This document shows, in pieces, positions 17,000-42,242 of a DNA stretch of 47,578 bases. The notes under the pieces are model-generated. The model searched no databases and had not been told where the DNA came from. It worked only from the letters and a program-made list of their open reading frames with translations. Both the position numbers and the translations under genes were made by a program. The number at the start of each line of letters is the position of its first letter. Within the stretch, counting starts at the first letter, position 1. This DNA comes from an uncultured Candidatus Poseidoniales archaeon (GTDB taxonomy: Archaea > Thermoplasmatota > Poseidoniia > Poseidoniales > Thalassarchaeaceae): assembly GCA_902601345.1 (NCBI GenBank), contig CACKMK010000007.1, positions 1 to 47,578 on the forward strand, given 5' to 3'.

Positions 17000-17052
17000 G
17001 ATTTCATCCCAACGGTTTGACTCAATAATGAGGGGCCTCTCCGATTGATTCA

Positions 17053-18251: not shown

Positions 18252-18769
18252 CTGACCTCCCCCTTTTCCATGATTGAGAAGCTCCACTTAAAGACCCATT
18301 CGGAAACCACATCCCCTGCAGCATCTCTCCCTGTAGACTTCAGCTCAACGCTTACGGGACTTCCAGTCTGGATACTTTCCTCTACGGCCTTTCTTGCCAA
18401 TACGCCATCTTCACAACTAAATGTTATCTCGCCCAGGGCTTTTTTTCTAAATTTAGACTCCTGTGCAGCTACCAGTGTCCTTGTCCTCCTCCCTAATGAG
18501 TTAACGACGGCTAGGGCATAACCCCCGGTTGAGAGCTCCGCTCCCATCCCCTGAATAGCCCAATACATGCTCTTGAATGGATTCTGCGTCCTCCATCCCC
18601 CTGGAACAGAAACAACACAAGACTCCGAGTCTAACTTATCGATCCTTAGGCCCGCGAAGCGAGATGCTGGGAATTTAAACAAACTCCACAATCTAAATCT
18701 CAATGGGGATGTTATTTTGTCTATCTCCCTGAGCACCTTCCTTTCCTCTACGTGCATGTCTATTCCCAC
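18248..18769 (-). CDS. Hotdog-fold protein of the DUF4442 / acyl-CoA thioesterase type
   Basis: This is a roughly 170-residue protein with the features of DUF4442 hotdog proteins: an N-terminal helix (SPLRFRLWSLFKFP), LDSESCVVSVPGGWRTQNPFKSMY, and a long helix QGMGAELSTGGYALAV, which is the hotdog central helix. It ends in paired beta strands. Members are predicted acyl-CoA thioesterases or acyl binders. Start options are GTG 18769 and ATG 18757. The stop overlaps the TTG start of the nitronate monooxygenase-family gene, so the two are translationally coupled. It lies 77 bases downstream of the acyl-CoA-binding protein gene. Confidence 0.7.
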   Translation of the reverse strand: MGIDMHVEERKVLREIDKITSPLRFRLWSLFKFPASRFAGLRIDKLDSESCVVSVPGGWRTQNPFKSMYWAIQGMGAELSTGGYALAVVNSLGRRTRTLVAAQESKFRKKALGEITFSCEDGVLARKAVEESIQTGSPVSVELKSTGRDAAGDVVSEWVFKWSFSIMEKGEVS

Positions 18770-18846
18770 AAAGTTTGGTTAGAAGAATTGTTTGCCTTGT
18801 GATCCAACTAAAATTGGCGATAAATCCTGCATGACTCTAGGTTAGG

Positions 18847-19113
18847 TTAGGTCAAAGAGAATGAATCGACAACTTCACAGTACCTCCTCATTGCATCAGA
18901 CTTAGAGGTGCCCGAAACTTGATTCCAAGCCTTCCACTTGGCTCTCTCTTTCAAGCCTCCCTTCGCCTTACCGATACAGTCTCCTTCGGTGGCTTGTTTG
19001 TAGAGGGCGTACATCTTCAGGAGTAAATCATTAGATGGTCTTGAGGATAAGGCCCACGCCTTTTTGCTAGCTCTGTTAAACCTCATCCGAAGACTCCTGG
19101 AGGGCTCTTTCAT
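18847..19113 (-). CDS. Acyl-CoA-binding protein (ACBP)
   Basis: This 88-residue protein matches the four-helix ACBP family, which binds long-chain acyl-CoA esters in the cytosol. The N-terminal FNRASKKAWALSSRPSNDLLLKMYALYKQATEGD carries the LYKQAT signature (tyrosines and lysine near residues 36-40). It is followed by AKWKAWNQVSGTSKSDAMRRYCEVV, where the AKWxAW and final tyrosine are standard ligand-site residues. Length equals the eukaryotic protein. It overlaps the acyl-CoA dehydrogenase stop as ATGA, so it is in the beta-oxidation operon. The family is typical of eukaryotes and patchy in prokaryotes; acquisition by transfer is likely. Confidence 0.9.
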   Translation of the reverse strand: MKEPSRSLRMRFNRASKKAWALSSRPSNDLLLKMYALYKQATEGDCIGKAKGGLKERAKWKAWNQVSGTSKSDAMRRYCEVVDSFSLT

Positions 19114-20918: not shown

Positions 20919-20927
20919 TTTTTCACC

Positions 20928-23264
20928 TTAGTTTCTGAGTGGTTTACCCGTCTCGAGCATGTGCTCCATTCTATCCAGAGTTTCTGTCTGCCTACCAAGC
21001 CAACCTATTGCTTCCCTCTCCAGTTCCAGAATTTCTTCTTCTTCCACCGACTCTGTTATGTCGGTGCTCCCTCCTGTTAGCACGCGTGCCAGCTTCTTGG
21101 TCACAACGACGTCATGAGGAGTAGCTTGACCCGCAAGTGCGAAGTCGTTAATCGCCAATTCCAAGGCCAATAAACCGGTTTCTCCGGGGAGAACGTAATT
21201 CCTAGGTTCTGGGGGGCAGTAACCCTCTGCCAAATCGATTGCCTTTTTCTTCGCATCTGCAAGAAGCCTGTCTCTGTTCATCGTTATGCCATCATTGGGG
21301 GCCAGGAAACCCATCGTTCTTGCCTGTTCGGCAGATTTTGAGACTTTTGCAGTACCAATGTACTCAAATGCTTTCATAACCGCACCCATGGGTCCCTCAG
21401 ATACAAGTTTGAATTCTGACAGCCTACCTAGGAGCTCCTTGCAACCTCCCCAGGCGGGAACGATGCCGACTCCGACCTCGACTAGGCCGATGTAAGACTC
21501 ACAGTGGGCTTGGACTGCGTCGCAATGCAGCAGGACTTCTGCACCCCCTCCCAAACACATCCCAGCAGAGGCAGCGACAACTGGAACCTCGCAGAACTTC
21601 AGGGCTTGGTAGGCCTCCTGTCCTGCAACTATGAATTCCTCAACATCTTTCCATGCGGCGAGATTAATCGCGAACAAGACCAAACCCAGGTTCGCACCGG
21701 CACAGAAATTTGCACCATCATTGCCAATTACGATGCCCCTCCAGTCACCGGTCTCGGCAATGTCTACCGCATCAACCAGAATTTCGATGATGAATGGATC
21801 AACTGCATTCATCTTTGAGTGATACTCTACGAGGAGGATATCATCTCCCATATCCCAGATACTTGCTGAGCCATTTTTCTTGATTGGCGCACCATGTCTT
21901 TTCAGATCCGCCACCTTAAGGGTGTTTGTTGGCCTATCAATGATTTCCATTTTTCCTTCGGTTGTTAGCCTAGTAGTCTCGTTGTCTACAACCTCGTAAA
22001 ATGACCCTTTTTTGGCAGCCTCAACCAGCATGGGAGGCACTCCTCTCCCTGAGGCTTCCAGACGCTCAACCACGCTAACTATACCGATTGAGTCCATCAT
22101 CTCAAATGGGCCTTTCTTCCAGTTATACCCTATTTTCATAGCAGTGTCAATTGAGTATATATCATCGCTCACATCAGGTACTAAGTGGGCAGCATAAGAC
22201 AATGTGTCCAAGAGTACTTCAGCCACAAATTTGGCCCCCCTGTCTGGGTGATCAATGAGTCTTCTCAATCCTTGTTTACCCATCTTTGCAGAAGGGAAAG
22301 CCGCTCTTCTGTCGGCAGGGCGGTATTTTCCGGTGTTTAGGTCTCTAGCCTCTTTAACACGCTGTCCTCCCTCCGTGTTCAGACGATAGAACCCCCCTTT
22401 CCCCTTTCTACCAATGTAGCCCTCAGCTAACATGTCATCAACGATTTCTACACCAGTTCCAGCAATCTCATGAAAAGGATCGTCTTCAGGAAGATTTTCC
22501 AATAAGCTTGCCGTAACGTGCGGGACTAGGTCAATTCCGACGAGGTCCATCAAGCCGAAGACGCCTGTCTTAGGCACTCCTATCGGCCTACCGAGCATGG
22601 CGTCAGCTTGTTCAATCGTGAGCTTATGATCAATGGTTCCCTTTAGGGCCCTTTGAATGAAGTACACACCCAGTCTGTTACCTATGAAACCAGGCGTATC
22701 ATTGCATAAAATGACCCTCTTCCCAAGCATATTGTCTGCGAATGACGATATTTTATTTGTGATAGAGGAATTTACTTCATCCGCTGTGACTACCTCGAGC
22801 AGAGGTAGGTACCTCGGCGGATTAAAGAAATGAGTGATAAGAAATCTAGAAGCCATCTCTGCCTGCATATTTTCAACCAGCTTACTTCTAGGTATTGTTG
22901 ATGTATTTGAAGAAACGATTGTACTTTTCCCGATGTGCTTGGAAATATTGCTGTACAGGTCCCTCTTCACATCCAAATTCTCGATTACCACCTCTATCAC
23001 CCAATCGACCTCAGATAGCATGGACAAGTCGTCCTCAATGTTCCCAGTAGTGATTAGTTTGGCATTACGCTTGTGAGTCAGCATCTCTGGATTTGATTTC
23101 ATCATTACTTTGACCGCAGAATTCGCGACACTATTCCTGTCTCTTTCTTCCCCGACGATATCAAGAAGTAAGACGTTGCATCCGGCATTAGCACAATGGG
23201 CAGCAATGCCTGCTCCCATGACGCCACTCCCGATAACGGCTACATTCTCTATGCTATTTGACAT
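20928..23264 (-). CDS. fadN: 3-hydroxyacyl-CoA dehydrogenase / enoyl-CoA hydratase fusion (FadN-like)
   Basis: This bifunctional 778-residue enzyme carries out steps two and three of beta-oxidation. The N-terminal NAD-binding domain opens with VAVIGSGVMGAGIAAHCANAG. The dehydrogenase catalytic histidine is in FLITHFFNPPRYLPLLEVV near residue 145, and the hydroxyacyl C-terminal domain follows (GFIGNRLGVYF). The crotonase domain occupies roughly residues 440-650, with GNDGANFCAGANLG, a CLGGGAEVLL helix and YIGLVEVGVGIVPAWGG containing the catalytic glutamate. Dehydrogenase-first order is that of FadN, opposite to FadB. One base separates it from the thiolase gene upstream. Confidence 0.92.
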   Translation of the reverse strand: MSNSIENVAVIGSGVMGAGIAAHCANAGCNVLLLDIVGEERDRNSVANSAVKVMMKSNPEMLTHKRNAKLITTGNIEDDLSMLSEVDWVIEVVIENLDVKRDLYSNISKHIGKSTIVSSNTSTIPRSKLVENMQAEMASRFLITHFFNPPRYLPLLEVVTADEVNSSITNKISSFADNMLGKRVILCNDTPGFIGNRLGVYFIQRALKGTIDHKLTIEQADAMLGRPIGVPKTGVFGLMDLVGIDLVPHVTASLLENLPEDDPFHEIAGTGVEIVDDMLAEGYIGRKGKGGFYRLNTEGGQRVKEARDLNTGKYRPADRRAAFPSAKMGKQGLRRLIDHPDRGAKFVAEVLLDTLSYAAHLVPDVSDDIYSIDTAMKIGYNWKKGPFEMMDSIGIVSVVERLEASGRGVPPMLVEAAKKGSFYEVVDNETTRLTTEGKMEIIDRPTNTLKVADLKRHGAPIKKNGSASIWDMGDDILLVEYHSKMNAVDPFIIEILVDAVDIAETGDWRGIVIGNDGANFCAGANLGLVLFAINLAAWKDVEEFIVAGQEAYQALKFCEVPVVAASAGMCLGGGAEVLLHCDAVQAHCESYIGLVEVGVGIVPAWGGCKELLGRLSEFKLVSEGPMGAVMKAFEYIGTAKVSKSAEQARTMGFLAPNDGITMNRDRLLADAKKKAIDLAEGYCPPEPRNYVLPGETGLLALELAINDFALAGQATPHDVVVTKKLARVLTGGSTDITESVEEEEILELEREAIGWLGRQTETLDRMEHMLETGKPLRN

Positions 23265-23265
23265 C

Positions 23266-24387
23266 CTAAACTCTTTCCAAAACCGTTGCCATCCCCATTC
23301 CTCCGCCCACGCATAGTGTTGCTAGAGCGTAGGTGCCCGCGCTCCTTGCTAGTAATTGGGCAGCTTTACCTATAATTCTGGCTCCACTCGCTCCCAGTGG
23401 GTGTCCAAGAGCAATAGCCCCTCCTTCGAGGTTCAATTTATTGATGTCAATCCCCAACTCACCAATAACCGCGAGCGATTGCGCCGCGAAAGCTTCATTC
23501 AATTCTATAATGTCTATATCATCTAGACTCAAACCCGCTTTATCCAATGCTTTTTTTGTAGCCTCCACCGGTCCTATTCCCATTATCTCAGGGGCGCACC
23601 CGGTCACTGAAGCGCTTCTGACTCTTGCCAGAGCGGCAAGGTTGTTCCTTTTGGCGTACTCGTCAGAACAGACCAAGACGAATGCCGCTCCATCTGTTAG
23701 TGGGGACGAGGTCCCAGCAGTTACAGTTCCATTAACATCGAATGATGGCCTCAGGCCTTTCAAGATCTCAATAGTCGTCTCGGACCGTATGCAGCCGTCA
23801 GCATCCACTACTCCCTCCTGAGTATGTATCGGCACGATCTCGGATGAGAATAATCCGGCTTCAATTGCAGAGGAAGCGAGCTTCTGACTCCTAACTGCAA
23901 ATTCCTCCTGATCCTCCCTCCCGATTCCGTAGACCTTTGAGACGTTTTCTGCCGTTGTTCCCATCGAGGTCATTACGTTTGCTGCAAGTTCTGGGTTCGG
24001 CATTGGGTTGAATCCCGTCATCGGGATTCTGCTCATACTCTCCACGCCACCTGCTATTATTGCATCTGCAAGTCCGCAATCTATCTTCGTAGCAGCATCT
24101 TGAACTGCCTGCATTGAGGACCCACAGAAACGATTTATTGTCGCACCTGGGACCGCTTCTGGCAACTCGCTCAGGAATACGATTATCCTACCCATGTTGT
24201 AGCCCTGTTCGGCTTCTGGAAAGGCACAGCCCACGAGAAGGTCATCTATGTTGGTACCCTCCAAGCCCAAATCCGATAGTAGTTTGTCTATAACCTGGGA
24301 GGCCATTTCATCGGATCTAGTTTTAGCCAATTGACCTTTATTTGCGGGGGTAAATGGAGATCTCGCATAGCCGGCGATTAGGGCCAT
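23266..24387 (-). CDS. fadA: Acetyl-CoA C-acyltransferase (thiolase)
   Basis: Thiolase catalyses the last step of beta-oxidation. The nucleophilic cysteine is in NRFCGSSMQ near residue 88, the catalytic histidine in GGAIALGHPLGASGARI near 335, and the second cysteine in TLCVGGGMGMA near 363. From ATG 24387 the protein has 373 residues and begins MALIAGYARSPFTP, a normal thiolase N-terminus; the frame extends to 24492 but that part is a hydrophobic non-homologous leader crossing the promoter region. It is the first gene of the beta-oxidation operon, with a perfect inverted repeat 40-60 nt upstream. Confidence 0.93.
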   Translation of the reverse strand: MALIAGYARSPFTPANKGQLAKTRSDEMASQVIDKLLSDLGLEGTNIDDLLVGCAFPEAEQGYNMGRIIVFLSELPEAVPGATINRFCGSSMQAVQDAATKIDCGLADAIIAGGVESMSRIPMTGFNPMPNPELAANVMTSMGTTAENVSKVYGIGREDQEEFAVRSQKLASSAIEAGLFSSEIVPIHTQEGVVDADGCIRSETTIEILKGLRPSFDVNGTVTAGTSSPLTDGAAFVLVCSDEYAKRNNLAALARVRSASVTGCAPEIMGIGPVEATKKALDKAGLSLDDIDIIELNEAFAAQSLAVIGELGIDINKLNLEGGAIALGHPLGASGARIIGKAAQLLARSAGTYALATLCVGGGMGMATVLERV

Positions 24388-24427
24388 GTCATTCTCTGAA
24401 AGAGTGAACACATAAACCAGATAGTGG

Positions 24428-24448
24428 TTATATCTGCAACAGATATAA
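24428..24448. promoter_or_regulatory. Perfect 9-bp inverted repeat, putative operator with overlapping TATA elements
   Basis: TTATATCTG, spacer CAA, CAGATATAA. The two arms are exact reverse complements. It lies between the divergent thiolase (start 24387) and carboxymuconolactone decarboxylase-like (start 24528) genes. Each arm contains GATATAA, a plausible TATA box, so a dimeric regulator bound here would block transcription in one or both directions. No regulator gene is adjacent, so the binding protein is unknown. Confidence 0.55.
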
Positions 24449-24527
24449 AAAATAAAAGCTAGTGAAAAAAGTAAACCTATGGCAGAGGACAAACAACTAT
24501 TATTCGTTTGGTTAGCACCGGAGGAAT

Positions 24528-25157
24528 ATGAGCACGTGGGATTCGGTAAATCTGGATGTAAAGGACTTGCCTAGGCTGGGCTATCTGACACTGGAGTCAT
24601 TAGAACCCGAAATGAAGGAAATTTTCACTTCCATAACAGACTCTGAGAGGGGTGTTGGAACCCTATCAAATGGAGGTTTACCCGGGCCCTTCAATGGCTG
24701 GATGTACACAGATCCCGAAATGGCGAGGGCCCTGGATGACATAGGGATGGCCGTAAGGTCGAATACCACAAATGTCCCAAAAACCATGAAGGAAGTGGCC
24801 ATATGCGTAATCGGTGCACATTTCAGAAGTAACGTCGAATTCTGGGCACATAGCAGGATAGCATTGGCGGCAGGAGTGAGGCAGGAGGTATTGGACTCTA
24901 TCTACAACTCGGAGGAACCCATTTTTTTTGAGACAGGAGAAGAGCCATTTCAGAAGGCTGGATACGACATGACGAAAGAGTATCTAGAAACCTACAGGAT
25001 CTCAGATAAAAGCTACCAGACCATTCTTGACTTGTTGGGATCCGATAAGGCCATGATTGAGCTGATCCTAGTCATGGGCCATTACATAGGTCTCGCAACC
25101 CAGCTAAACATCCTAAGAGTACCAAACCCCGGAGACCGACAATATTTCGAAAATTGA
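24528..25157 (+). CDS. Carboxymuconolactone decarboxylase / AhpD-fold protein
   Basis: This is a 209-residue all-helical protein of the CMD/AhpD-like superfamily. Signs are GPFNGWMYTDPEMARALDDIG near residue 54, KTMKEVAICVIGAHFRSNVEFWAHSRIALAAGV (about 85-118, the family core) and a C-terminal IELILVMGHYIGLATQLNI helix. It lacks the CxxC of AhpD peroxidases, which leaves a lyase-like or unknown role. GGAGG at 24520-24524 precedes the ATG very closely. Its stop overlaps the possible TTG start of the Rieske gene (TTGA). It is first in the plus-strand ring-cleavage-like gene set. Confidence 0.78.
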   Translation: MSTWDSVNLDVKDLPRLGYLTLESLEPEMKEIFTSITDSERGVGTLSNGGLPGPFNGWMYTDPEMARALDDIGMAVRSNTTNVPKTMKEVAICVIGAHFRSNVEFWAHSRIALAAGVRQEVLDSIYNSEEPIFFETGEEPFQKAGYDMTKEYLETYRISDKSYQTILDLLGSDKAMIELILVMGHYIGLATQLNILRVPNPGDRQYFEN

Positions 25158-25507
25158 AAGGCAAGATTATGTTGACCGAAGTCGCTAGATTACAAAGCTC
25201 ATCCCTTTCCTCGGGGGAGGTCAAGATGATCGAGATACCTGAAAATGCTGACAAGCTAACGGCATTGGTCATTAGAACCAATACAGGAGTGTACGGATGG
25301 CTCAACGCCTGTCCTCATGATGGGAGGAGATTATGCCAAGACCCGGCTTACCTAATAAAAAGGAAAACCGGCCTCATTCAGTGCATGCACCATCAGGCAA
25401 CTTTTGATCCGGAGTCAGGAGTGTGTGATGACGGACCCTGTTTAGGTGACAAACTAAGAGAAGTCAAAACTATAGAGAAAGACGGGCAAATCATAGTCCT
25501 GATGTGA
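25154..25507 (+). CDS. Rieske [2Fe-2S] ferredoxin-like protein
   Basis: This small soluble protein has a Rieske cluster motif: ACPHDGRRL near residue 50 and QCMHHQATFDPESG near 74 supply the Cys-x-His and Cys-x-x-His ligands. A second cysteine pair (VCDDGPCLG) follows. Length (112-117) fits ferredoxin components of ring-hydroxylating oxygenases or NirD-type proteins. No large oxygenase subunit is in the window, so its redox partner is open. The start is TTG 25154 (overlapping the previous stop) or ATG 25169. Confidence 0.85.
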   Translation: MKGKIMLTEVARLQSSSLSSGEVKMIEIPENADKLTALVIRTNTGVYGWLNACPHDGRRLCQDPAYLIKRKTGLIQCMHHQATFDPESGVCDDGPCLGDKLREVKTIEKDGQIIVLM

Positions 25508-25562
25508 TTCCAAAAAATATACTCTCCGTCAATTCTAAATCATCCCCCCCGCATCGATTTCC

Positions 25563-26981
25563 ATGGTACAAGAGAGTTCGGGACCAACCCCGACCGCCGC
25601 AGACATAATTCAATTTGTAGACAGAGACTTGGATTTATTCGAAGCTATAAACGACGGAACTGAAAGCCATCTGGAAGGAGCAGAGTCCCTACCTCAAATA
25701 GAACCTCTGACCAAGGCATGGGATATCGCTTATGTCAGATTCTCAGTACCTGATCTCGACCGGTACGAAAGGTGGGTGGAAGACTTTGGACTGAAGATTG
25801 TTCATAGGGACGAGAACACAATCTACTCACGAGGCATTGGTGGAGATGGGTTCTGTCATGTGGCACACAAGGGACCTGCTAAATTCCTCGGATTCGCAAT
25901 GATGATGAGCGAGGAGGAAGACCTCCATATCTTGTCAAAAAATATAGCGGGCTGCAGTGAGGTGCACAATATCCCGGGAATAGAGGGAAAGATAAGCGGA
26001 GGAAAGCGAGTCTCATTCATAGACCCAGTTTGTAACCTCCTTCTAGAGGCCGTATACGGCAGGAAGATCGAACCCCTCCCTCCTTCGAGAGAAAGAATAG
26101 AATACAACTATGGAGACAAGATTCACTACAAGAGGCCAGCAAATAAGTTACAAGATACCTCGGGCAATAGGAAAGTCGACGGCAGCAATACCGTGCATCC
26201 TGGCCCTCCGGATGTGCTGAAGATTGGTCACGTTGTCCTAACGATACCGGTTGGTCCTCACCACCAGATGATGTCGTTCATGATGGAGACTTTCGGCCTT
26301 CTACCTTCTGACAGCGTATACTTTGAATCCCCTAAATCAGCGGAAGGACATTCCATCAACCCTCAGATGTTCGAGAGCTTGCAGAAGGCCGGCCCATCTC
26401 CACTTTACGAGGGTACATTCGCAGAGGGTGAAGCAACATATGGGTGCTTTTTCAGGTGTGACAGGGGCGAAGTGCCAACTGACCACCACACATTCTTCAT
26501 TTTGTCACTAATGGATTCAAGGCAGGCTCCAGAGGGCCAAGGGATTAATCCTCAACTGAGCCATGCCTCTTTCGAGGTCTCCAATCTGGATGACGTTTGG
26601 CGGGGTCACATGCAGCTGAAGACGAAGGCGGAATTCCTGGATGAGAGATATGAGATAGCCTGGGGCGTGGGAAGGCACGTCCTAGGTTCACACATCTATG
26701 ACTACTGGCATGACCCTTACGGACACGTGCACGAACACATGTCCGACGGCGATAGGATGACGAGGTCCTTCGGCCAGAGGATTCACAAGATCAGTGGCAT
26801 GGGCCCGAATGGGCACAATCAATGGGGGCCCACCGTCGCTGAGTCGGGTATCAGGAACCTCGATGGCCCCGCAGCAGCAAGTTTTTACGAAGATCTGGAC
26901 AAAGAAACCCAGCAGTCACTTGTTAATCGAGACTTGGCGAACGTACAAGATCTGGTACGAAGGATCAGGAATTCGTCATGA
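25563..26981 (+). CDS. Extradiol (type I) ring-cleavage dioxygenase, VOC fold
   Basis: This is a two-domain vicinal-oxygen-chelate protein of the catechol 2,3-dioxygenase type, which opens catechol rings next to the hydroxyls using Fe(II). The iron ligands are visible as H223 (IGHVVLTIP), H334 (LSHASFEVSNLDDVW) and E391 (DPYGHVHEHMSDGD). The N-terminal VOC domain runs from about residue 54 (DIAYVRFSVPDLDRYERWV). At 472 residues it is longer than the usual 290-350, with extensions at both ends and a long inter-domain linker. Its stop overlaps the hydrolase start by four bases. A TATA-like AAAATATAC lies at 25516-25524. The aromatic substrate cannot be read from the sequence. Confidence 0.82.
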   Translation: MVQESSGPTPTAADIIQFVDRDLDLFEAINDGTESHLEGAESLPQIEPLTKAWDIAYVRFSVPDLDRYERWVEDFGLKIVHRDENTIYSRGIGGDGFCHVAHKGPAKFLGFAMMMSEEEDLHILSKNIAGCSEVHNIPGIEGKISGGKRVSFIDPVCNLLLEAVYGRKIEPLPPSRERIEYNYGDKIHYKRPANKLQDTSGNRKVDGSNTVHPGPPDVLKIGHVVLTIPVGPHHQMMSFMMETFGLLPSDSVYFESPKSAEGHSINPQMFESLQKAGPSPLYEGTFAEGEATYGCFFRCDRGEVPTDHHTFFILSLMDSRQAPEGQGINPQLSHASFEVSNLDDVWRGHMQLKTKAEFLDERYEIAWGVGRHVLGSHIYDYWHDPYGHVHEHMSDGDRMTRSFGQRIHKISGMGPNGHNQWGPTVAESGIRNLDGPAAASFYEDLDKETQQSLVNRDLANVQDLVRRIRNSS

Positions 26982-28327
26982 AGGAAAGCGAATATTCCAT
27001 ACCTGATACCAATGGGGTATCATTCGATGTGGAGTACGTGGAGATCGATGGGCACAAACATAGGATTGCAATCGCTGGAAACCCGGAAGGCACGCCTGTA
27101 GTTGTCATGATGGGAGTTTTCGAAGACAGCCTGAAACATTCAAAATGGCTTGTCTCATACATGGTAAACCACCCCAGCGGTGGAGATTACAGATTTGTCA
27201 TAATCACAGTTCCATTCTTGGAGGAGTATACCAGTATCAACGTGGACCCCAATACGATGTCAAAGTACGATGGCATGGTTCCCCCAAACAAAATCATACC
27301 AATGAAAGGGACTCTGGCAGTGGACCCTAGATTCGATCTCGAGAACTGCGCCTACACGCTGAAGGACATACTTACCCAGGGGCTAGGAATCGAGAGTGCT
27401 CACTTCATCGGCCATGACAGGGGGTGCATAATCATGGATAACATGCTCGCAGAGTTCCCACAATTTGCTATCAGCTACTCCAGGGGATCACAGGGATGGA
27501 CAATGTTCGAGGAAGAATGGTACGACCTAACTGACAGTGGAATATTCCTAGGACCACCCCACAGAATCATGGCGACCAAGGCTTTCCCCCCTCTTCTCGG
27601 CAGTGCGATCAGGGGAGGCGCCCCCTTCGGCTTCATCGCACCCTCCTTCGCAATTGAGGGCTCTATGGCGCCAACCGGCAGTGAGGCCAAGGACAGATGG
27701 GATGCCATCCAGTCAATGCCGAATCAGACGGAAACATTCTTTCAGCTGACAAGGCAGATGTTCCGCCAGACAGACTTCCAGGATGAGGGGAAGAGAAGGT
27801 CGGACAGGTCCAGGGGATTCAGCATACTTGACACTGACTTCCCTATGATGCAGTTCCAGGGATCAGATGAGATGCTCAGGGCTAGAGACATACCAGGTGC
27901 TAGAAAGATGCCCCTTTTGAGGAAACTTAGAGGCCTGCTGGGTGGTGGCCATGTCACGGGAATCTTCAGGCTATTTAGACTGAAATTCCCGACCTACATA
28001 TTCGCCGACCTGCCTAATGACCACGGAGTTATCTCCAATCATACAGGCGACCAGCCCTATTGGGGCAAGTGGAATTTCTGGCCTGATGATGTCGAGGATC
28101 TATTACCCGGGGGGGAGTTCCAAGATAGGAATGACCCGATCTGGAAGGAGAACCAAAAGAGGTATGTTAAGGCCATGGCCGGGGGGAAATACTCAACTCT
28201 GCAGACCAAAGAAGGAGGGAGGTTCTCAAGGTTCAGTATAATCTCAGATGCCCTCCACTGGACTCATATCGAGAGGCCCGAGAACGTTGCATGGGCATGC
28301 ATGGACTTCATAGTGGAAAATAGCTGA
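26978..28327 (+). CDS. Alpha/beta hydrolase with aspartate nucleophile elbow
   Basis: This is an alpha/beta-hydrolase fold protein directly coupled (ATGA) to the extradiol dioxygenase. The nucleophile elbow is FIGHDRGCI with D147 where serine hydrolases have Ser. GHDRG is the motif of haloacetate dehalogenases and epoxide hydrolases. The likely catalytic histidine is in ALHWTHIERPENVAW near the C-terminus, the usual place. At 449 residues it is much longer than the 300-residue norm; the cap region between about 165 and 370 is enlarged. Position suggests it acts on the ring-cleavage product or a related epoxide/halide. C-C hydrolases of the meta pathway normally use Ser, so the exact chemistry is uncertain. 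Confidence 0.75.
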   Translation: MKESEYSIPDTNGVSFDVEYVEIDGHKHRIAIAGNPEGTPVVVMMGVFEDSLKHSKWLVSYMVNHPSGGDYRFVIITVPFLEEYTSINVDPNTMSKYDGMVPPNKIIPMKGTLAVDPRFDLENCAYTLKDILTQGLGIESAHFIGHDRGCIIMDNMLAEFPQFAISYSRGSQGWTMFEEEWYDLTDSGIFLGPPHRIMATKAFPPLLGSAIRGGAPFGFIAPSFAIEGSMAPTGSEAKDRWDAIQSMPNQTETFFQLTRQMFRQTDFQDEGKRRSDRSRGFSILDTDFPMMQFQGSDEMLRARDIPGARKMPLLRKLRGLLGGGHVTGIFRLFRLKFPTYIFADLPNDHGVISNHTGDQPYWGKWNFWPDDVEDLLPGGEFQDRNDPIWKENQKRYVKAMAGGKYSTLQTKEGGRFSRFSIISDALHWTHIERPENVAWACMDFIVENS

Positions 28328-28334
28328 TAGCGGA

Positions 28335-30974
28335 TCAGGAATTCCTCTCGGCCTCGGCAACTGTAGCCCTGACAGCCACAGCAGTATCCGGGGTAACCGA
28401 GATACTAGTTATGCCGCAATCGATTAGGAAAGGCGGAAACTCATCTGGAAAATCAGACGGAGCCTGTCCACATATTCCTATCTCAAGACCTTTAGAGTTG
28501 AATTTTTCCACTATTTCCCTAATCATGGATTTCACCGATGGAGACCGTGCGTCGATGGGGTTCTGGTATCCTTCCAGGTCATCTCTCGAAACAGCATATA
28601 CAGTCTGGACTAAATCGTTAGAACCTATAGAACCACCAGCTAGATCCATCATCTCAATGAACCTGTCGGCCTCAATTACATTCGACGGGAGCTCGACCAT
28701 AACAAAAAGTTCAGTTCCAGTGTCTGGTCCAACTTCCTTCTCGTTCAGAAGCTCGGTCACCATTTTACCCTCCTCAGGAGTTCTGCAGAAGGGTACCATA
28801 AGCTGTAGATTGTCCAACCCGAACTCGTCTTTCACAGATTTCATTGCGTCTAACTCCATCTCGAAAGCCGGCCGGAACTTGTCATCCATGTACCTAGACG
28901 CCCCTCTCCATGCTATCATCGGATTTTCCTCAACCGGCTCGAAAATCCAACCACCCAGGAGCTCCCTGTACTCATTTGATTTGAAATCAGAAAGCCTGAC
29001 AAGCACCGGTCTAGGATAGAATGCGGCGCAGATAAGTCCAACTCCTTCCTTGAGCTTGTCGATGAAAAGACCTCGTTTGTCAGGATAAGCCCAGGCCCTT
29101 TTTTCTAACGACTCGACGAGGGTCCTCACCTCTGCGGTATCGGAATTCTCCAAAACCTCTCGATACGCCTTCAGGCTGTCAGAAACCTCTCCTGTTTCAG
29201 CATAGTTCTTCAGCTCGTCGTGATGCACAAAAGCCAGAGGGTGGATTCCCAATTCCGAGGATAAGATGAATTCTATCCTCGCCAATCCAACACCATCGAC
29301 CGGTAATTTAGAATCTGCTAGTGACTTGGTTGGAAAACCTACATTCAGTTTTATCTTGGTTTTCAAGACTTCACTCTCGTCGATAGAAAACTCCTCTATC
29401 TCAAAGGGGACTGATCCTGAGTAAACGTAGCCTATGTCCCCCTCCGCACAGCTTCCAGTAACTTCAGTCATGTCTGGTATATCCATTGCTTCAGAGCATC
29501 CAACAATAGCGGGTATCCCGAACTCTCTTGCGATTATCGCGGCATGGGACGTTCTGCCCCCCTTTCTTGTGATGATTAGTGCCGATTTTTTCATCAATGG
29601 CTCCCAGTCAGGTGTAGTCATTTCGGTTACGAGAACATCTCCTTGTTGGAAAACTGCCATCTCATCTGAAACCTCCTCCATGGAAAGCCCGCTATCCAAA
29701 AGCTTGCTCAATTCTCTCTTCTTCCCTAGAACCTCGGAATACGTTCTGAAGGCCCTGACCTTGCCTACTCCAATTCTCTTCCCAACGGCCTGTCCAGAGG
29801 CGATCACTCTGCCCTCTAGCTTCAACTTCGACGCGATTTTCTCGTCTATCTTGTACATGAGCATCTTGTTATGCTCAGATTTGGAGTGTATGGTTTCTGG
29901 CCTTGCTTGGACTATGTAGATCTCTCCCGTCACTCCGTCCTTCGCCCACTCAATATCCATCGGCTGATCGAAGTACTCCTCGATCGACACCGCCATTTGC
30001 CCCAGCATAACACACTCATCCCTCTCCAGTGACCATCTCTTCCTCAGGTCCAGGGGAACCCTTACGGAGGAGACTTCATTGGCCAGTTCGTCATCATAAA
30101 CCAGCATCTGTTCCTTTGAACCAAGGGTCCTATGGACAATCGGTGATTTTCCCTTCCTGAGCCCTTCCTTCCAGATCGTAAATGTGTCGGGCGTCACAAC
30201 TCCTTGAACCACAAGCTCCCCCAGTCCGTATGAGGACGCAATGTGTATCACTCCTCCATGGCCGGAATCTGGATCTATAGTGAACATAACCCCAGAGCAT
30301 GCTCTGTCAGACCTAGCCATCTTCATGACGACTACCGCCACAGCGCTCTCAAGAGGGTGTAGGCCATTCTCCAGATGGTACCCAACAGATCGCTCCGTGA
30401 ACATGCTGGCGACGCATCTCCTCCATTTTTCGACAATCTCAACCTCGCCACTCACGTTAAGGAAGGACTCGTATTGCCCCGCGAAAGATGCCTCTTTGGA
30501 GTCCTCGGTCGTCGCCGAGGATCTCACTGCCACATCCACACCCGGGTAATAGATGTCACATAGCTTACCATAGTCGGAGGCAATGGCGAGTTTGACGGAT
30601 TCTGGGACTGGCGTCTCCCTCACCAGTGATCTTGCCAGTGCCGCTCTAGCATTGAGCTCTAGCTCCTTTGCTGGATCAACCCCTCTCAGGCAAACCTCTA
30701 GTGCCCTACCGAGGCTTCTCTGCTTGATCGCTTCATTTCTGATCTCCTCCACTCCCTCTGGGTTTCTTACGTTGTCCCATGTTCTCTCGGGAATTTCAGA
30801 ATCTACGAATCTAGAAAATGCATCGGTAGTTAGAGTAAATCCATTCGGGACTTTCACGCCAGATTCCGATAATTTCTGAAACATTTCCCCCAGTGAGGCG
30901 CCCTTTCCCCCAACTTTCGGAGTGTCTCCAATTCTAGTTCGCTCAAACCACTTTGTCAGTCTTGGCTCCGCCAT
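28335..30974 (-). CDS. ppsA: Phosphoenolpyruvate synthase
   Basis: PEP synthase converts pyruvate and ATP to PEP, AMP and phosphate and starts gluconeogenesis. The N-terminal ATP-grasp domain begins near KVGGKGASLGEM (residue 21) and includes VAVRSSATTEDSKEASFAGQYESFLN. The swivelling phosphohistidine is in GGRTSHAAIIAREFGIPAIVG near residue 480. The C-terminal PEP/pyruvate barrel contains GSNDLVQTVYAVSRDD and the catalytic cysteine in GICGQAPSD. The length of 879 is somewhat above the typical 790. It lies convergent to the alpha/beta hydrolase, between the two halves of the ring-cleavage set. A TTAAAC element about 27 nt upstream (near 30998-31006) could serve as TATA box. Confidence 0.93.
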   Translation of the reverse strand: MAEPRLTKWFERTRIGDTPKVGGKGASLGEMFQKLSESGVKVPNGFTLTTDAFSRFVDSEIPERTWDNVRNPEGVEEIRNEAIKQRSLGRALEVCLRGVDPAKELELNARAALARSLVRETPVPESVKLAIASDYGKLCDIYYPGVDVAVRSSATTEDSKEASFAGQYESFLNVSGEVEIVEKWRRCVASMFTERSVGYHLENGLHPLESAVAVVVMKMARSDRACSGVMFTIDPDSGHGGVIHIASSYGLGELVVQGVVTPDTFTIWKEGLRKGKSPIVHRTLGSKEQMLVYDDELANEVSSVRVPLDLRKRWSLERDECVMLGQMAVSIEEYFDQPMDIEWAKDGVTGEIYIVQARPETIHSKSEHNKMLMYKIDEKIASKLKLEGRVIASGQAVGKRIGVGKVRAFRTYSEVLGKKRELSKLLDSGLSMEEVSDEMAVFQQGDVLVTEMTTPDWEPLMKKSALIITRKGGRTSHAAIIAREFGIPAIVGCSEAMDIPDMTEVTGSCAEGDIGYVYSGSVPFEIEEFSIDESEVLKTKIKLNVGFPTKSLADSKLPVDGVGLARIEFILSSELGIHPLAFVHHDELKNYAETGEVSDSLKAYREVLENSDTAEVRTLVESLEKRAWAYPDKRGLFIDKLKEGVGLICAAFYPRPVLVRLSDFKSNEYRELLGGWIFEPVEENPMIAWRGASRYMDDKFRPAFEMELDAMKSVKDEFGLDNLQLMVPFCRTPEEGKMVTELLNEKEVGPDTGTELFVMVELPSNVIEADRFIEMMDLAGGSIGSNDLVQTVYAVSRDDLEGYQNPIDARSPSVKSMIREIVEKFNSKGLEIGICGQAPSDFPDEFPPFLIDCGITSISVTPDTAVAVRATVAEAERNS

Positions 30975-31046
30975 GTGTGATAAGACGAAGACTCATGTTT
31001 AATCCTTGATGGCCGACTTTAGATTTCCTCTTTTTGAATCAGAGTG

Positions 31047-32684
31047 TTAAACAAGACAAAACATTGACAGATAATCTGAAATCATATTCTTCTCTTGTCC
31101 TCTATTGTAAGTTCCGAGCATAGTGTAACCAGGTGCCATTAGAACGTAATCGACCCCCTTGAACAGTTTCTGATGCATCCTCAAATCTTCCTCTCTCTGG
31201 CAAGATACAAGCGACGTGCCGGAGGTTTTCTTTCCATCTTTGCCATCGCTGAGAGATATCACGAGGGGTTGGATTGAGGCAGGGATTTCTTGAACCAGAC
31301 CATCTACATTTCCACTGGAGTCCTTACATAGAATTCTGTATTTTGTGGGGTTGTATGTCCTCAGGGATCTGGGCAGACCTTCCTCTGTCTTGTAATTATA
31401 CATCGGATATCCCTTTTGACTCGATTTTTTGGGTTTGAACCCATTCGGTATTGTGATAGTCTCGGGGACAAACGCAGGAAATAGATCAATGGGTTTGCCC
31501 CTTGCACCGTTTAACCGGTGGATAATTCCTCTTATGAGGTTAATATGGGGTTTCACGTTGAATAACAGACCTCCCATGAACAATGACTGTTTGATTATGA
31601 ATTCAGAGTCAGGGTAGCACTCTACTTGATACCTATCTAACAGGCGATCCTCGGAAACACCCTTGGATACCAGATCAATCTTGTTGACCAGATTCAGGGT
31701 ATTCCTGACCCCTAGGTTCAGCCCCTGACCTATGAAGGGGGACGTCTGGTGGGTAGCGTCTCCGATAGTGAACATGTTTCCCTTTCTCCAATCCTTGGAA
31801 ATAAGAGAATTAAATTTGTAAATGGTGGACCTGACTATCTTGATCTCATCAGGGACAAGGTAAGGAGAGACTAGTTTTTTTATCGAATCTGGAGACTGAA
31901 TTTTAGCATGGTCGTCATTTTTGTTTAGTGCGAATTCAAACCTGAAAGTGTTCTTGTATGTCCCGTGGTTCTTGCCTTCGCACAGCAAGAATGTCGTCGG
32001 CCTTTTTCCATCAGGATCGATAATCTGGTGCCCCCCTGCGTCAAACTCCTTCCCCGGTTGTAGTGCAGATCTAGGGGCATTTATGTCCACTATCAGGAAG
32101 TGAATTGATTTCCCCAGTGATTTCAATTCTGAACCCATCTGTTTTCTAACGAAGCTTCCACCGCCATCCGCTCCGATCAGGTAGTCTGAAGACAGAGTTT
32201 TCGTATCTCCCGTGGTATTGTTCTGGATATTGATGAAGTTCTTTTGATCTTCCCATAACACGAGGGCTTCGTGACCATAAAGTGCTTCTATTCCACCATC
32301 ATCCTCAATTTTGGCCCTCAGTAGACGCTCCAGTTGTGGTTGATTGAACCAGTTGATGAAACCGTAGTGATCCAGATCAAGAATTTCCCCGTCTATCACT
32401 GGGGGTTGCATTTTTCCGAAAGGCTCGTTCATTCTATCCTTTCCGAGTACGTAACCGACCTCGATAGCGGTGGTGTAGTCGAAATCAGGCCATTTTTCCC
32501 CGAGGAGTTCCTCGATTACGCCCATCGTGAATCCGTTCAGAGCTATTCCACGAGGGAATGGGTAGGGGCTCGCGTTCTTTTCGATGAGGCAAACGCTAAG
32601 CCCTTTTTTCGAAAGGAGTAGCGACGCTATGGATCCTATTGGACCTCCACCCACTATGATTACATCGAATTCTTCACTTTTCAC
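31047..32684 (-). CDS. FAD-dependent aromatic-ring monooxygenase (MhpA-like, class A)
   Basis: This flavoprotein hydroxylase of the p-hydroxybenzoate hydroxylase / MhpA superfamily normally inserts one oxygen into a phenolic ring using NAD(P)H. It has the FAD dinucleotide fold VIIVGGGPIGSIASLLLSKKG at residue 8, the DG motif LIGADGGGSFVRKQMG near 168, and the GD motif TIGDATHQTSPFIGQGLNLG near 295. Its length of 545 fits the MhpA group, including a C-terminal thioredoxin-like region. The start overlaps the end of the CoA ligase gene by 11 bases. With the extradiol dioxygenase it could provide the hydroxylation before ring opening; the substrate is unknown. Confidence 0.82.
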   Translation of the reverse strand: MKSEEFDVIIVGGGPIGSIASLLLSKKGLSVCLIEKNASPYPFPRGIALNGFTMGVIEELLGEKWPDFDYTTAIEVGYVLGKDRMNEPFGKMQPPVIDGEILDLDHYGFINWFNQPQLERLLRAKIEDDGGIEALYGHEALVLWEDQKNFINIQNNTTGDTKTLSSDYLIGADGGGSFVRKQMGSELKSLGKSIHFLIVDINAPRSALQPGKEFDAGGHQIIDPDGKRPTTFLLCEGKNHGTYKNTFRFEFALNKNDDHAKIQSPDSIKKLVSPYLVPDEIKIVRSTIYKFNSLISKDWRKGNMFTIGDATHQTSPFIGQGLNLGVRNTLNLVNKIDLVSKGVSEDRLLDRYQVECYPDSEFIIKQSLFMGGLLFNVKPHINLIRGIIHRLNGARGKPIDLFPAFVPETITIPNGFKPKKSSQKGYPMYNYKTEEGLPRSLRTYNPTKYRILCKDSSGNVDGLVQEIPASIQPLVISLSDGKDGKKTSGTSLVSCQREEDLRMHQKLFKGVDYVLMAPGYTMLGTYNRGQEKNMISDYLSMFCLV

Positions 32685-34296
32685 TATCGCCGTCCTCCAA
32701 TAAATAACCCTCGTAATCCTCTCTTAATTGCCTTTTGATAGGCTTTCCTGTGGAACCAAGAGGGAGCTCATCGACAAATACCACGGCATCCGGTTTTTGC
32801 CACTTGACAACTTTACCGTCATAGAAATCAAGAAGTTCCGCCTGGTCTATTCTACTACCCTTCACCATCTCAGCAATCACAATCGGCCTCTCTGACCACT
32901 TACTGTGCTTGACACCGATTACAGCAGCATCATATACATCCGGATGCAACTTGATTATCTCTTCTAGCTCTATCGAGCTAATCCACTCGCCGCCGGATTT
33001 TATGAGATCCTTTGATCTGTCAGTTATGGTCAGGAATCCATCTGAATTCAAAACCCCAAGGTCTCCGGTTTCGAACCAACCGGACTCGTCAACGGCATCA
33101 GATTCATCAAACAAATATCTCCGAATTACAGTCGGCCCCCTAACCTGAATTGCCCCCTCTGGTCCTCCTCTTTCTATTTCCTCACCTGAATCGTCAATGA
33201 CCCTGATTTCCACAGCCCAGTTCGTCCTGCCAGCGTTTTCCATTAGTTCGATGGCTTGATCATGTTCCAAGTCTGTGTGCTTCCCTAATGGGGTGTTCGC
33301 AGTCCCCAAGGGGCTCGTCTCGGTCATGCCCCAAGCCTGTTGAACGTTAACGCCGTGTTTTTCTTTGAAATCTCTGATTACCCAAGAAGGAACAGCTGAC
33401 CCCCCTGAGACCACTCTCTTCAGGTCTCGAATAGGCATTGGATCGGTACTAAGTACATCAAGAACTTCTTCCCAGATAGTAGGTATCGCTAGTGCTACGG
33501 ACACATTCTCTTCAGACATCAACCTGACAATACTCTTGCCATCCAGATTCGGCCCCGGCAGAATAAGTCTAGCACCCACCATCGCGGATGCGTAGGTCAT
33601 CCCCCACGCGTTCACATGGAACATGGGAACTATGGGTAGTATCGTATCTCTCGCGCTAAGGCAGAAGCTGTCTGGAAGGCTGACAATGTTCGCGTGAAGC
33701 ACGATTGACTTGTGAGAGTAAAGCACTCCTTTCGGATTACCAGTTGTTCCTGAGGTGTAACACAGTACTGCGGCGGCGTCCTCATCAAGCTGAGGCCACT
33801 GGAATGAGTCGTCTCCCTCTTGGAGCAGGTCGACAAGAAACTCCAGCCCGTTCATTCTTGCAGCAATCTCATTCTGCTTGGGCCCGGTAATGTAGAAGCG
33901 CTCTACTGTTTCGAGTAAGTGTTTGTGGCCTATCAAGAAGCCTACGTAAGATGGATCAACGAAGAGAACCCTATCCTGTGCATGATTGATGATGTAGACA
34001 ATCTCATCGGGGAACAATCGAGGGTTAATTGTGTGCGCAACCCCCCCAAATCCGGATATTGCGTACAATAACTCTAGATGTGACCTGTTGTTAGGCATGA
34101 TAGTGCCAATTCGGACACCTTCTTCCAATCCTGTATTCTCTAGCGCGCTTGCAAGTTTCCTGCATCGCTGGCCGACCTCCTTCCAGTCGGTCCTCTCACG
34201 AGATCCACTTATGTCCACCGAGACTACCTCGGTATCCCCATGATTGGTCTCTGCGTGGCCTATCAGCAAGTTCGTGGTAAGGCCGGTTTGGCTCAT
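32674..34296 (-). CDS. Acyl-CoA / aryl-CoA synthetase (ANL superfamily)
   Basis: This AMP-forming CoA ligase activates a carboxylic acid via acyl-adenylate. The P-loop is YTSGTTGNPKGVLYSHKS near residue 180. The A5 motif GMTETSPLG and the A7-A8 hinge GWFETGDLGVLNSDGFLTITDRSKDLIKSGGEWIS follow, and the catalytic lysine is in GSTGKPIKRQLRE near the end. The ANL subgroup resembles medium/long-chain fatty-acyl-CoA ligases. ATG 34296 is preferred; GTG 34323 overlapping the FAH stop would add nine residues. It sits between FAH and the monooxygenase in one operon, so a benzoate-like or ring-fission acid is possible. Confidence 0.85.
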   Translation of the reverse strand: MSQTGLTTNLLIGHAETNHGDTEVVSVDISGSRERTDWKEVGQRCRKLASALENTGLEEGVRIGTIMPNNRSHLELLYAISGFGGVAHTINPRLFPDEIVYIINHAQDRVLFVDPSYVGFLIGHKHLLETVERFYITGPKQNEIAARMNGLEFLVDLLQEGDDSFQWPQLDEDAAAVLCYTSGTTGNPKGVLYSHKSIVLHANIVSLPDSFCLSARDTILPIVPMFHVNAWGMTYASAMVGARLILPGPNLDGKSIVRLMSEENVSVALAIPTIWEEVLDVLSTDPMPIRDLKRVVSGGSAVPSWVIRDFKEKHGVNVQQAWGMTETSPLGTANTPLGKHTDLEHDQAIELMENAGRTNWAVEIRVIDDSGEEIERGGPEGAIQVRGPTVIRRYLFDESDAVDESGWFETGDLGVLNSDGFLTITDRSKDLIKSGGEWISSIELEEIIKLHPDVYDAAVIGVKHSKWSERPIVIAEMVKGSRIDQAELLDFYDGKVVKWQKPDAVVFVDELPLGSTGKPIKRQLREDYEGYLLEDGDSEK

Positions 34297-34322
34297 GTTC
34301 CCGTACAACATAAGACCCCACA

Positions 34323-35225
34323 CTACACTACGGTATTCTCTAGCACGCCAATCGACTCGATCTCACATCTGACAACGTCTCCGCTTTGAAGGAAAACATT
34401 CCCTTTTCTTCCCTTATCGGCATTGCCCGATGAGCCTCGCGGGCTAAATCCTGAGCCAGGGGGGGTGCCAGTGGCAATGATGTCCCCTGGGTAGAGTGTC
34501 ATAGCACTCGATAGGTACTCTATCTGTTCGTAGCAATTCCATATCATGTCATCAGTGTTGCTTGATTGCCTGATCTCTCCGTTGACATAGCACTCTATTT
34601 TCAGGTTGTGCGGCTCGGGTACTTCGTCCGAGGTGACGATCCACGGACCAATGGGGCCATGTGAGTTATGGGACTTTCCTATCATCAACTCAATCCTGTC
34701 TGGCATATTGTGCATCTGCCAGTCCCTCATGCTAACGTCGTTACAGACCATGTAACCGAATATGTAGCGAGAAGCTTCCCCTGCGTTGACTTTGTAGCAC
34801 TCCTCGCCGATGACAAACGCCAATTCAACCTCGTAATCAAGCATCATCGTAGAATCGGGCTTTATGATGTCCCCATTCGGAGAATTGATACAACTAACTT
34901 GCTTTGAGAACCACATCTGATTCCTCGGAGGGGTTATACCAGCGTCGACAGACTCTGCTCTGTGCTTTTGATAGTTCATTCCTATGGCTAGAAATTTGCC
35001 TGGGTTACTAATTGGAGAGAGGAGGGACACCTCAGATAATGGCAATGTGATGGTTTTATCCTTCATTTCCTGTAAAATTGCTCCTTCGTATTTCGGCCAA
35101 TCTGATATCAATTTCAGCATATCTGGGGGGATGTTAGTCCTTTCATTTGACAATTCGATAACGCCATTTCCAGACTTTACACCTAATGAGATTTCTCCAT
35201 CATGCCGGTATCTGAGTAGCCTCAT
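34323..35225 (-). CDS. Fumarylacetoacetate hydrolase (FAH) family protein
   Basis: FAH-fold enzymes hydrolyse, isomerise, hydrate or decarboxylate beta-dicarbonyl products of ring cleavage. The metal site is visible: DYEVELAFVIG near residue 138 gives two glutamates and VCNDVSMRDWQ near 167 an aspartate. IGMNYQKH near 82 and GDIIATGTPPGSG near 253 are family signatures. The best functional matches in kind are 2-hydroxyhepta-2,4-diene-1,7-dioate isomerases and relatives from meta pathways. From ATG 35225 it has 300 residues; the frame continues to 35285 but that part is AT-rich promoter sequence. First gene of the minus-strand operon with the CoA ligase and monooxygenase. Confidence 0.87.
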   Translation of the reverse strand: MRLLRYRHDGEISLGVKSGNGVIELSNERTNIPPDMLKLISDWPKYEGAILQEMKDKTITLPLSEVSLLSPISNPGKFLAIGMNYQKHRAESVDAGITPPRNQMWFSKQVSCINSPNGDIIKPDSTMMLDYEVELAFVIGEECYKVNAGEASRYIFGYMVCNDVSMRDWQMHNMPDRIELMIGKSHNSHGPIGPWIVTSDEVPEPHNLKIECYVNGEIRQSSNTDDMIWNCYEQIEYLSSAMTLYPGDIIATGTPPGSGFSPRGSSGNADKGRKGNVFLQSGDVVRCEIESIGVLENTVV

Positions 35226-35332
35226 GATTTCCCGTGCGATAACTAACTTATTATCAATATCAAAAATGGAAATAATATACATCACACTAAGAATTCAATT
35301 ATTTAGGGCCTGGACAGCGCAAGGTCCACATC

Positions 35333-36214
35333 CTAGCCTATCCTTTCTCCCATCCATGTCTTCAGGTCATCGCCTAAATCTTCTCGTTGTAATGCGTGAT
35401 CTATCTGTGATTTTAACCAAGACAAGGGATTTCCACTGTCGTACATGCTAAATCGGTCTAACTTCACTGCGTGCAAGCCTCCATTTTCGATTAAGTGATT
35501 TAGTACCTCAATAGATTGCAACTCCCCGAACTCTGAAAGAGGGTACATTTCCAGTATTTCCCCGGTATTTTCAGGGAAAATGTATCTACCACACAGTACG
35601 TATTCGCTCGGAGCAGACTCGATGTCTGGCTTCTCCACGATACTCTTCACCTTTTCATCAGAAATCTCGACCACCCCGTAATTGCTAATCTCCTCTCTTG
35701 CCACTGGGCAGGCGCCAACTACCGGCAATCCAGATTGTGAAAACACGGAAACCAATTCGCTAGATGCATCTGAAGCATAACTCGTCCCTGAATGAAGCGG
35801 TCCCCAGTGTTCCTCCAACAACAACATGTCTCCAAGGAGTACGAGAAAAGGCCCCTCGACAGACTCGATTGCAGTAGATATGGCATCTGCAACCCCTCCG
35901 GGCCTTTTCTGAATGTGGGGGATTATTTCCAATCCTTTCAAACCCAGTCTAAGTGACTCTCTCGGCAGATCTGGCCTAATCTCGCCACCGTGTTGTTCTT
36001 CGTCAGATATGAAATCACTGAGAAACTCGTGTTTCCTTTCGGAAAGTACTAGGTGAACCCTAGACACTCCGGCCTTGGCAACTTCCCAGATTAGATGATT
36101 GATGATAGGGGTATCTACGAGGGGCATGGTTTCCTTGGGAATGAAAAGACTAGCGGGTAGCATCCTAGTCCCGCTCCCTCCGGCAAGAATGACCGCATCT
36201 TCCACCTTCGCCAT
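35333..36214 (-). CDS. galU: UTP-glucose-1-phosphate uridylyltransferase type nucleotidyltransferase
   Basis: This is a GT-A fold sugar nucleotidyltransferase. The N-terminal signature is DAVILAGGSGTRMLPASLFIPKETMPLVD, with VILAGGSGTRMLP and the PKETMPLVD lysine; further motifs are RPGGVADAI near residue 107, the metal aspartate in LVLLGDML near 126, and the downstream SIVEKPD. These match GalU, which makes UDP-glucose, better than RmlA. ATG 36214 gives 293 residues; GTG 36226 would add four. A TTTATTG element about 30 nt upstream may be the TATA box. It opens the polysaccharide region. Other NTP/sugar specificities cannot be excluded. Confidence 0.82.
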   Translation of the reverse strand: MAKVEDAVILAGGSGTRMLPASLFIPKETMPLVDTPIINHLIWEVAKAGVSRVHLVLSERKHEFLSDFISDEEQHGGEIRPDLPRESLRLGLKGLEIIPHIQKRPGGVADAISTAIESVEGPFLVLLGDMLLLEEHWGPLHSGTSYASDASSELVSVFSQSGLPVVGACPVAREEISNYGVVEISDEKVKSIVEKPDIESAPSEYVLCGRYIFPENTGEILEMYPLSEFGELQSIEVLNHLIENGGLHAVKLDRFSMYDSGNPLSWLKSQIDHALQREDLGDDLKTWMGERIG

Positions 36215-36287
36215 GTTATTCGCCACACATCAGCCCCTTTCAATAAAGCGCCAAAACAGGAAGTATTCAATTCCATGAGGTGGTAAA

Positions 36288-42127: not shown

Positions 42128-42208
42128 TCTGACACCTGTATATTGCGGTCGATGTTTCCGTATTTGTCTTTATTCGTATTAGAAAAATCAATTTCACTAT
42201 CATTGGTG

Positions 42209-42219: not shown

Positions 42220-42242
42220 AACTATTACCGGGGTTTGAAACT

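Follow-up and report, generated by a model that had tools for sequence, protein, structure and literature searches.

The 47,578-nucleotide contig analysed here in full (the window; CACKMK010000007.1, forward strand, assembly GCA_902601345.1) belongs to an uncultured Poseidoniales (Marine Group II, MGII) archaeon whose genome (G000) is 63.7% complete, and it carries seven genes that probably form a mobile cassette for the catabolism of a phenolic compound. On the plus strand lie cmd (24528..25157), for a 209-residue carboxymuconolactone decarboxylase/AhpD-like protein; rieske (25154..25507), for a small, 117-residue Rieske [2Fe-2S] ferredoxin-like protein assigned by Pfam and its motif; edo (25563..26981), for a 472-residue type I extradiol dioxygenase-like protein of the VOC superfamily, assigned by profile and active-site residues; and abh (26978..28327), for a 449-residue unusual alpha/beta hydrolase resembling epoxide hydrolases and dehalogenases, recognised by the motifs G145-H-D147-R-G149 and H430. 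On the minus strand lie fah (34323..35285), for a fumarylacetoacetate hydrolase (FAH)-family enzyme; acs (32674..34323), for an AMP-forming acyl-CoA ligase; and fmo (31047..32684), for a 545-residue MhpA-like group A flavin monooxygenase (FMO) with the motifs GGGPIG and GDATH, all three assigned by Pfam and NCBIfam. They are joined by ppsA (28335..30974), for an 879-residue phosphoenolpyruvate synthase (Pfam). The seven genes and ppsA are present as intact open reading frames at these coordinates, where an earlier reading of the bare sequence, the original prediction, had placed them. The plus-strand operon begins with cmd, which has GGAGG a few bases upstream of its ATG, and overlaps of 4 bases join cmd to rieske and edo to abh. 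A divergent thiolase frame was listed from 24492, but its likelier start is the ATG at 24387 (MALIAGYARSPF...), which leaves a gap of about 140 bp ahead of cmd. The phosphoenolpyruvate synthase gene does not divide two operons, as had been proposed: it lies 73 bp behind fmo as the last gene of the fah-acs-fmo-ppsA strand and is convergent with abh.

The dioxygenase edo has no Pfam match, and its NCBIfam matches to HpaD and catechol 2,3-dioxygenase are weak, at 26.5 and 20.8 bits against equivalog cut-offs of 321 and 320 bits. Its two-His one-Glu metal site (H223, H334 and E391), already thought to be intact, is invariant in all 20 aligned homologues, the farthest of them 30-39% identical, as are the second-sphere residues H309, H372 and Y381. 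A profile built from these 20 homologues aligns with catechol 2,3-dioxygenase 1mpy along its whole length (E = 6e-13) and also matches 3b59 (E = 1e-29). The spacing from H372 to Y381 and on to E391 is 9 and 10 residues, the same as in catechol 2,3-dioxygenase, for which we take the catalytic roles and residue numbering of the reference enzyme to be those generally accepted. Since the active site is complete and invariant, the spacing is conserved and the profile alignment spans the whole of 1mpy, edo is very likely a ring-cleaving type I enzyme rather than a glyoxalase-type VOC protein. The placement among non-ring-cleaving VOC proteins, which would have told against the original prediction, was thus not found. 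The protein is also extended at its N-terminus, and some 40 residues are inserted between its first and its catalytic His.

The monooxygenase has the GxGxxG and GD FAD motifs and the FAD_binding_3 domain (Pfam, 7e-51) of group A flavin monooxygenases; it reaches 250 bits against the nearest MhpA-type subfamily, where the NCBIfam cut-off is 390, and it also resembles 2,4-dichlorophenol monooxygenase and polyketide oxygenases. The ligase acs (AMP-binding, 7e-70) is nearest in NCBIfam to 3-(methylthio)propionyl-CoA and long-chain-fatty-acid CoA ligases. The product of fah (FAA_hydrolase, 1e-67, 228 bits) is nearest to HpcE and L-2,4-diketo-3-deoxyrhamnonate hydrolase and keeps the ExE metal motif and the HxxE dyad of its superfamily, in YEVE and NYQKHRAE, which align to both of those enzymes. 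The Rieske domain (1.6e-7) retains its CxH...CxxH ligands in 19 of 19 homologues, and rieske stands directly upstream of edo wherever both were observed. XylT reactivates catechol 2,3-dioxygenase and, by analogy with it, the Rieske protein may keep the iron of edo reduced. Finally, cmd scores below the threshold of Pfam PF02627 (12.8 against 23 bits) and is about 30% identical to proteins annotated as carboxymuconolactone decarboxylase family, with E-values down to 1e-17/1e-18.

The assignment of abh to the alpha/beta hydrolases is weak by sequence and lies below the Pfam cut-off. In 17 abh sequences, the elbow GHDRG, with D147 at the nucleophile position, and H430, within HWTHIERPENV, are invariant. 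In the predicted structure, which is usable in the core only (pTM 0.52), D147 sits between strand 141-145 and helix 148-159; epoxide hydrolases and haloalkane dehalogenases head its fold matches, though the TM-scores are low. The Cif and EphA epoxide hydrolases and the haloalkane dehalogenases share with abh the Asp nucleophile elbow and an HW..E.P motif near the C-terminal His, but abh differs from them in its length of 449 residues, its long lid and its poor model, and its sole PDB profile match, to EphA, aligns at both motifs with an E-value of only 0.008. Known meta-cleavage-product hydrolases use a Ser nucleophile. Because the predicted nucleophile of abh is Asp147, and not the Ser of the BphD/MhpC type, abh is probably not a classical meta-cleavage-product hydrolase; the family proposed for it earlier stands, weakly, while the classical hydrolysis step after ring fission is doubtful. 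No abh homologue was found in 72,556 plasmids and one occurred among 289 Alphaproteobacteria, with none there outside the cassette. PADLOC gave no match for abh or cmd, so they are not known defence genes.

A scan of GTDB representatives yielded 20 loci with close edo relatives. The arrangement cmd-rieske-edo-abh facing fmo-acs-fah, without ppsA, recurs in the Marine Group III (MGIII) genome CG-Epi1 (L026) and in Marinimicrobia AG-892-A09 (L022); bacterium TMED144 (L023) has the matching order as far as its contig end, and an MGII contig (L010) has edo-abh facing fmo-acs-fah, again without ppsA. In marine Alphaproteobacteria, a reduced form of the set is present at eleven loci (L012-L021 and L024, the last truncated), made up of cmd, rieske, edo, abh and fmo together with a fah of another kind. 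Conservation of the genes together had been proposed as a check on the grouping, and the order does recur in MGIII, Marinimicrobia and other MGII genomes; since dN/dS is also low, at 0.05-0.12 for the cassette genes and ppsA between the window and its relative L008, the grouping goes beyond chance, and these ratios indicate that the cassette is under purifying selection. Across domains and phyla, edo is 73-80% identical, whereas the 3-hydroxyacyl-CoA dehydrogenase (hadh) and acyl-CoA dehydrogenase (acd) of the MGIII locus itself are only 46-52% identical to those of the window. Because the dioxygenase stays so similar between domains, transfer of the cassette appears recent, and on these comparisons horizontal transfer is by far the best explanation over common descent. 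The sequences thus indicate that the seven-gene set has moved as a unit among planktonic MGII, MGIII, Alphaproteobacteria and Marinimicrobia. Carriers are few: 6 of 319 Poseidoniales genomes, from three genera of one family, 1 of 21 MGIII genomes, 1 of 149 in the Marinimicrobia phylum sample and 1 of 385 Alphaproteobacteria sampled, all of them lower bounds, as many genomes are incomplete. No edo relatives were found in viral contigs, which leaves carriage by phage unsupported. A further locus (L011; PAGT01000001, binned as Flavobacteriales MED779) has cassette proteins identical or near-identical to those of MGIII CG-Epi1 beside archaeal-like genes and is probably a misbinned MGIII contig.

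The halves of the cassette do not share one history, however, as the original prediction would have had for all seven genes. The edo tree pairs the window with L009 and the fmo tree pairs it with L010, and the swapped topologies are rejected for edo and fmo (p-AU 0.007 and 0.004, for groups chosen after inspection of the trees). A comparison of the window with L008 gives dS values of 0.13-0.17 for the left flank and 0.13-0.14 for fmo and acs, but 0.3-1.1 for cmd, rieske, edo, abh and ppsA. The conflict between the trees points to recombination between the cassette halves, and by these measures the left half and ppsA have been exchanged separately from the rest. Among the alphaproteobacterial loci, edo is 95-99% identical between L013, L017 and L024 on the one hand and L012 and L021 on the other, with fmo only about 70% identical, so that fmo there would either have been swapped or be diverging fast independently. 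Frameshifts break edo in L025 (L025:5577-5581) and abh in L009 (L009:3724-5703); these are either assembly errors or decaying copies.

The product of ppsA has PPDK_N and PEP-utilisers domains, and the gene, found in 60 of 312 Poseidoniales, is an accessory one in this order that travels with the cassette. Within the genus of the window, it occurs in all four cassette carriers and in 1 of 22 other genomes (p = 3e-4, uncorrected for kinship and partly reflecting physical linkage), and it is tied to the cassette in two MGII genera. If the pathway sets pyruvate free, this linkage would be accounted for.

Taken together, these observations suggest, with a probability that we put at roughly 70%, that the locus is a horizontally mobile catabolic cassette for a phenolic compound, carried by a Poseidoniales archaeon in a variable island beside tRNA-Ala. 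At the level of enzyme classes and of the genetic unit, the sequences support a catabolic role well; the individual reactions and the substrate, which we infer, could be as follows. The monooxygenase would hydroxylate a phenolic ring next to an existing hydroxyl, and edo would then open the ring with O2, using Fe2+ held by H223, H334 and E391 and acid-base chemistry by H309, H372 and Y381. The oxo-dienoic or 2,4-dioxo acid so formed would be cleaved or decarboxylated by the FAH-family enzyme, probably with release of pyruvate, which phosphoenolpyruvate synthase could send back into gluconeogenesis, and the CoA ligase would activate the remaining acid for beta-oxidation. For abh, with its predicted Asp nucleophile, the probable target is an ester, lactone, epoxide or carbon-halogen bond, either in the substrate or in an intermediate. 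Of the aromatic hydroxylation and ring-opening set first proposed for this MGII archaeon, what remains is a conserved unit shared by transfer, with neither the classical abh step nor the adjacent beta-oxidation genes supported as part of the set. Several observations weigh against such a pathway: edo is much longer than the standard enzymes (472 against about 300 residues) and its predicted structure is poor (pLDDT 34); the cassette contains no transporter or regulator; no member of this operon type with a proven substrate was found; ppsA is missing from the non-MGII cassettes and from one MGII genus (L010); and the alphaproteobacterial cassettes lack acs and have a different FAH enzyme (about 36% identity), so that the end of the pathway varies.

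Known systems offer partial parallels. Homologues of fah and fmo often adjoin distant dioxygenases (about 28-35% identical), both in 42 sampled Alphaproteobacteria and in Burkholderia, Paraburkholderia, Sphingopyxis, Microvirga and others; in Burkholderia multivorans the order is FMO-VOC-FAH-acyl-CoA synthetase, accompanied by OmpW and regulators. Such operons (B. multivorans and similar: NZ_CP143553, Sphingopyxis granuli pRW412a and Microvirga ossetica) hold the same four enzyme families, and their dioxygenase has the same invariant active site as edo; they differ in the low identity just given, in a shorter dioxygenase, in having no cmd-rieske pair and, in those examined, no abh homologue, and in being plasmid-borne. 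It is to this known kind of system that the cassette belongs, as a marine variant shared between domains. In the Mhp pathway for 3-(3-hydroxyphenyl)propionate, too, an MhpA-like hydroxylase acts first, and the ring is then opened and its product hydrolysed, but there the dioxygenase, MhpB, is of the LigB type and the hydrolase, MhpC, of the Ser type, whereas the cassette has a VOC type I dioxygenase, an Asp hydrolase and, in addition, a CoA ligase. The Hpa (homoprotocatechuate) pathway supplies, in the type I dioxygenase HpaD and the FAH-family HpaG/HpcE, some of the nearest named relatives of edo and fah; the cassette scores far below the HpaD and HpaG cut-offs, however, lacks an HpaE dehydrogenase and has an FMO in place of HpaBC.

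The likeness to mhp and bph gene content, together with the MhpA-like fmo, raises the alternative of a classical meta-cleavage pathway, in which abh would follow fmo and edo as a C-C hydrolase like BphD or MhpC and fah would act downstream in the manner of a hydratase. BphD does appear among the weak fold matches of abh, at rank 20, but the Asp of the invariant GHDRG elbow, the closer fold and sequence neighbours among epoxide hydrolases and haloalkane dehalogenases and the distant fmo-edo-fah operons that do without an abh homologue make this quite unlikely. The same dehalogenase likeness of abh, the resemblance of fmo to 2,4-dichlorophenol monooxygenase and polyketide oxygenases and the sporadic occurrence of the set in an island at a tRNA site could instead fit the tailoring or detoxification of a specific natural product (a quinone, a halogenated phenol or an antibiotic-like compound) rather than growth on aromatic carbon. 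We consider this unlikely as well, given that the CoA ligase, the FAH enzyme and, in MGII, ppsA indicate carbon use, that the homologous operons carry an acyl-CoA synthetase and catabolic-type regulators, and that no biosynthetic core enzyme is present. Most of the records are metagenome bins, and the Flavobacteriales-binned contig shares its cassette proteins with the MGIII one, as might be expected if bacterial DNA had been mis-assembled or misplaced into an archaeal bin. This explanation is extremely improbable, and we rejected it: the cassette occurs in a Poseidoniales single-cell genome (L007) and in several independent bins, and the window itself joins it, on one 47.6 kb contig, to MGII genes on the left (90-99% identical) and to the galU/glmS region on the right.

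A bolder version of the phenolic-catabolism reading, which we offer tentatively and as the less probable outcome, is that the seven genes exchanged between surface-ocean archaea and bacteria make up a new pathway that cleaves the ring of one widespread marine aromatic, such as a halogenated phenol or a plankton quinone, by means of Asp-nucleophile hydrolases of a new family and a dioxygenase activator of the Rieske type, the first such route in planktonic MGII and MGIII archaea. Nearly intact movement between domains under purifying selection would imply a shared, useful substrate in the photic ocean, and the enzymes are specific enough to make the question of that substrate testable. Judging from the genes, archaea known for consuming proteins and fats may, in some carriers, also feed on an aromatic compound. 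Neither of two main surveys of Marine Group II metabolism that were searched refers to aromatic compounds or dioxygenases, and in the open-access literature we found no publication on this cassette and no paper joining Poseidoniales with an extradiol dioxygenase. A survey of hydrocarbon degradation (PMC9535955) names Poseidoniales and MGIII among the genomes with a capacity to break down downstream aromatic intermediates, and mentions reports of alkB/xylM in MGII bins, but does not mention this cassette.

The island that holds the cassette runs in the window from tRNA-Ala(TGC) at 17053 to galU at 35336. The tRNA gene (17053..17129, plus strand; ARAGORN and synteny) forms its left edge, and a galU-like nucleotidyltransferase gene (35333..36226, minus strand; synteny), also found in the cassette-free genus-mate G027, forms its conserved right edge. 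In that genome (L098), the stretch from the same tRNA to galU and glmS holds, in this order, ppsA, a methyltransferase gene, a short unknown gene, a DUF1574-like gene and an MBOAT gene. In L008, cmd begins 76 bp past tRNA-Ala, and L007 and L025 likewise carry the tRNA upstream of cmd. This tRNA-Ala(TGC) hotspot (window 16997-35335; L098, L099, L008) holds differing cargo among related Poseidoniales and thus swaps metabolic genes. No flanking direct repeats of at least 16 nt were found at the island ends and no integrase among those island genes that were identified, so the island does not qualify as an integrative element.

Between the tRNA and the cassette, the minus strand (17271..24492) encodes NMO, a DUF4442 thioesterase-like protein, an acyl-CoA dehydrogenase, a fused 3-hydroxyacyl-CoA dehydrogenase/enoyl-CoA hydratase and thiolase, cargo seen at this site in the window alone, which could possibly provide the downstream beta-oxidation. 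The adjacency of beta-oxidation genes claimed at the outset is real in the window, but their membership of the set is not supported: at the same tRNA-Ala site, the cassette-bearing relatives L007, L008 and L025 lack the window's acyl-CoA dehydrogenase, fused hydratase-dehydrogenase and thiolase. Across the genus, hadh is found in 11 of 27 genomes. Functional coupling to beta-oxidation is nonetheless possible, because in MGIII separate genes for hadh, acd, SDR, a thioesterase and an enoyl-CoA hydratase lie beside the cassette. At the other end, the MGIII cassette stops 58 bp short of a tRNA-Ile gene (L026:14204-14281), a second archaeal placement beside a tRNA gene. At the right end of the window, GC content drops from about 0.50 to 0.39-0.43 at 40000-46000, possibly marking a second island.

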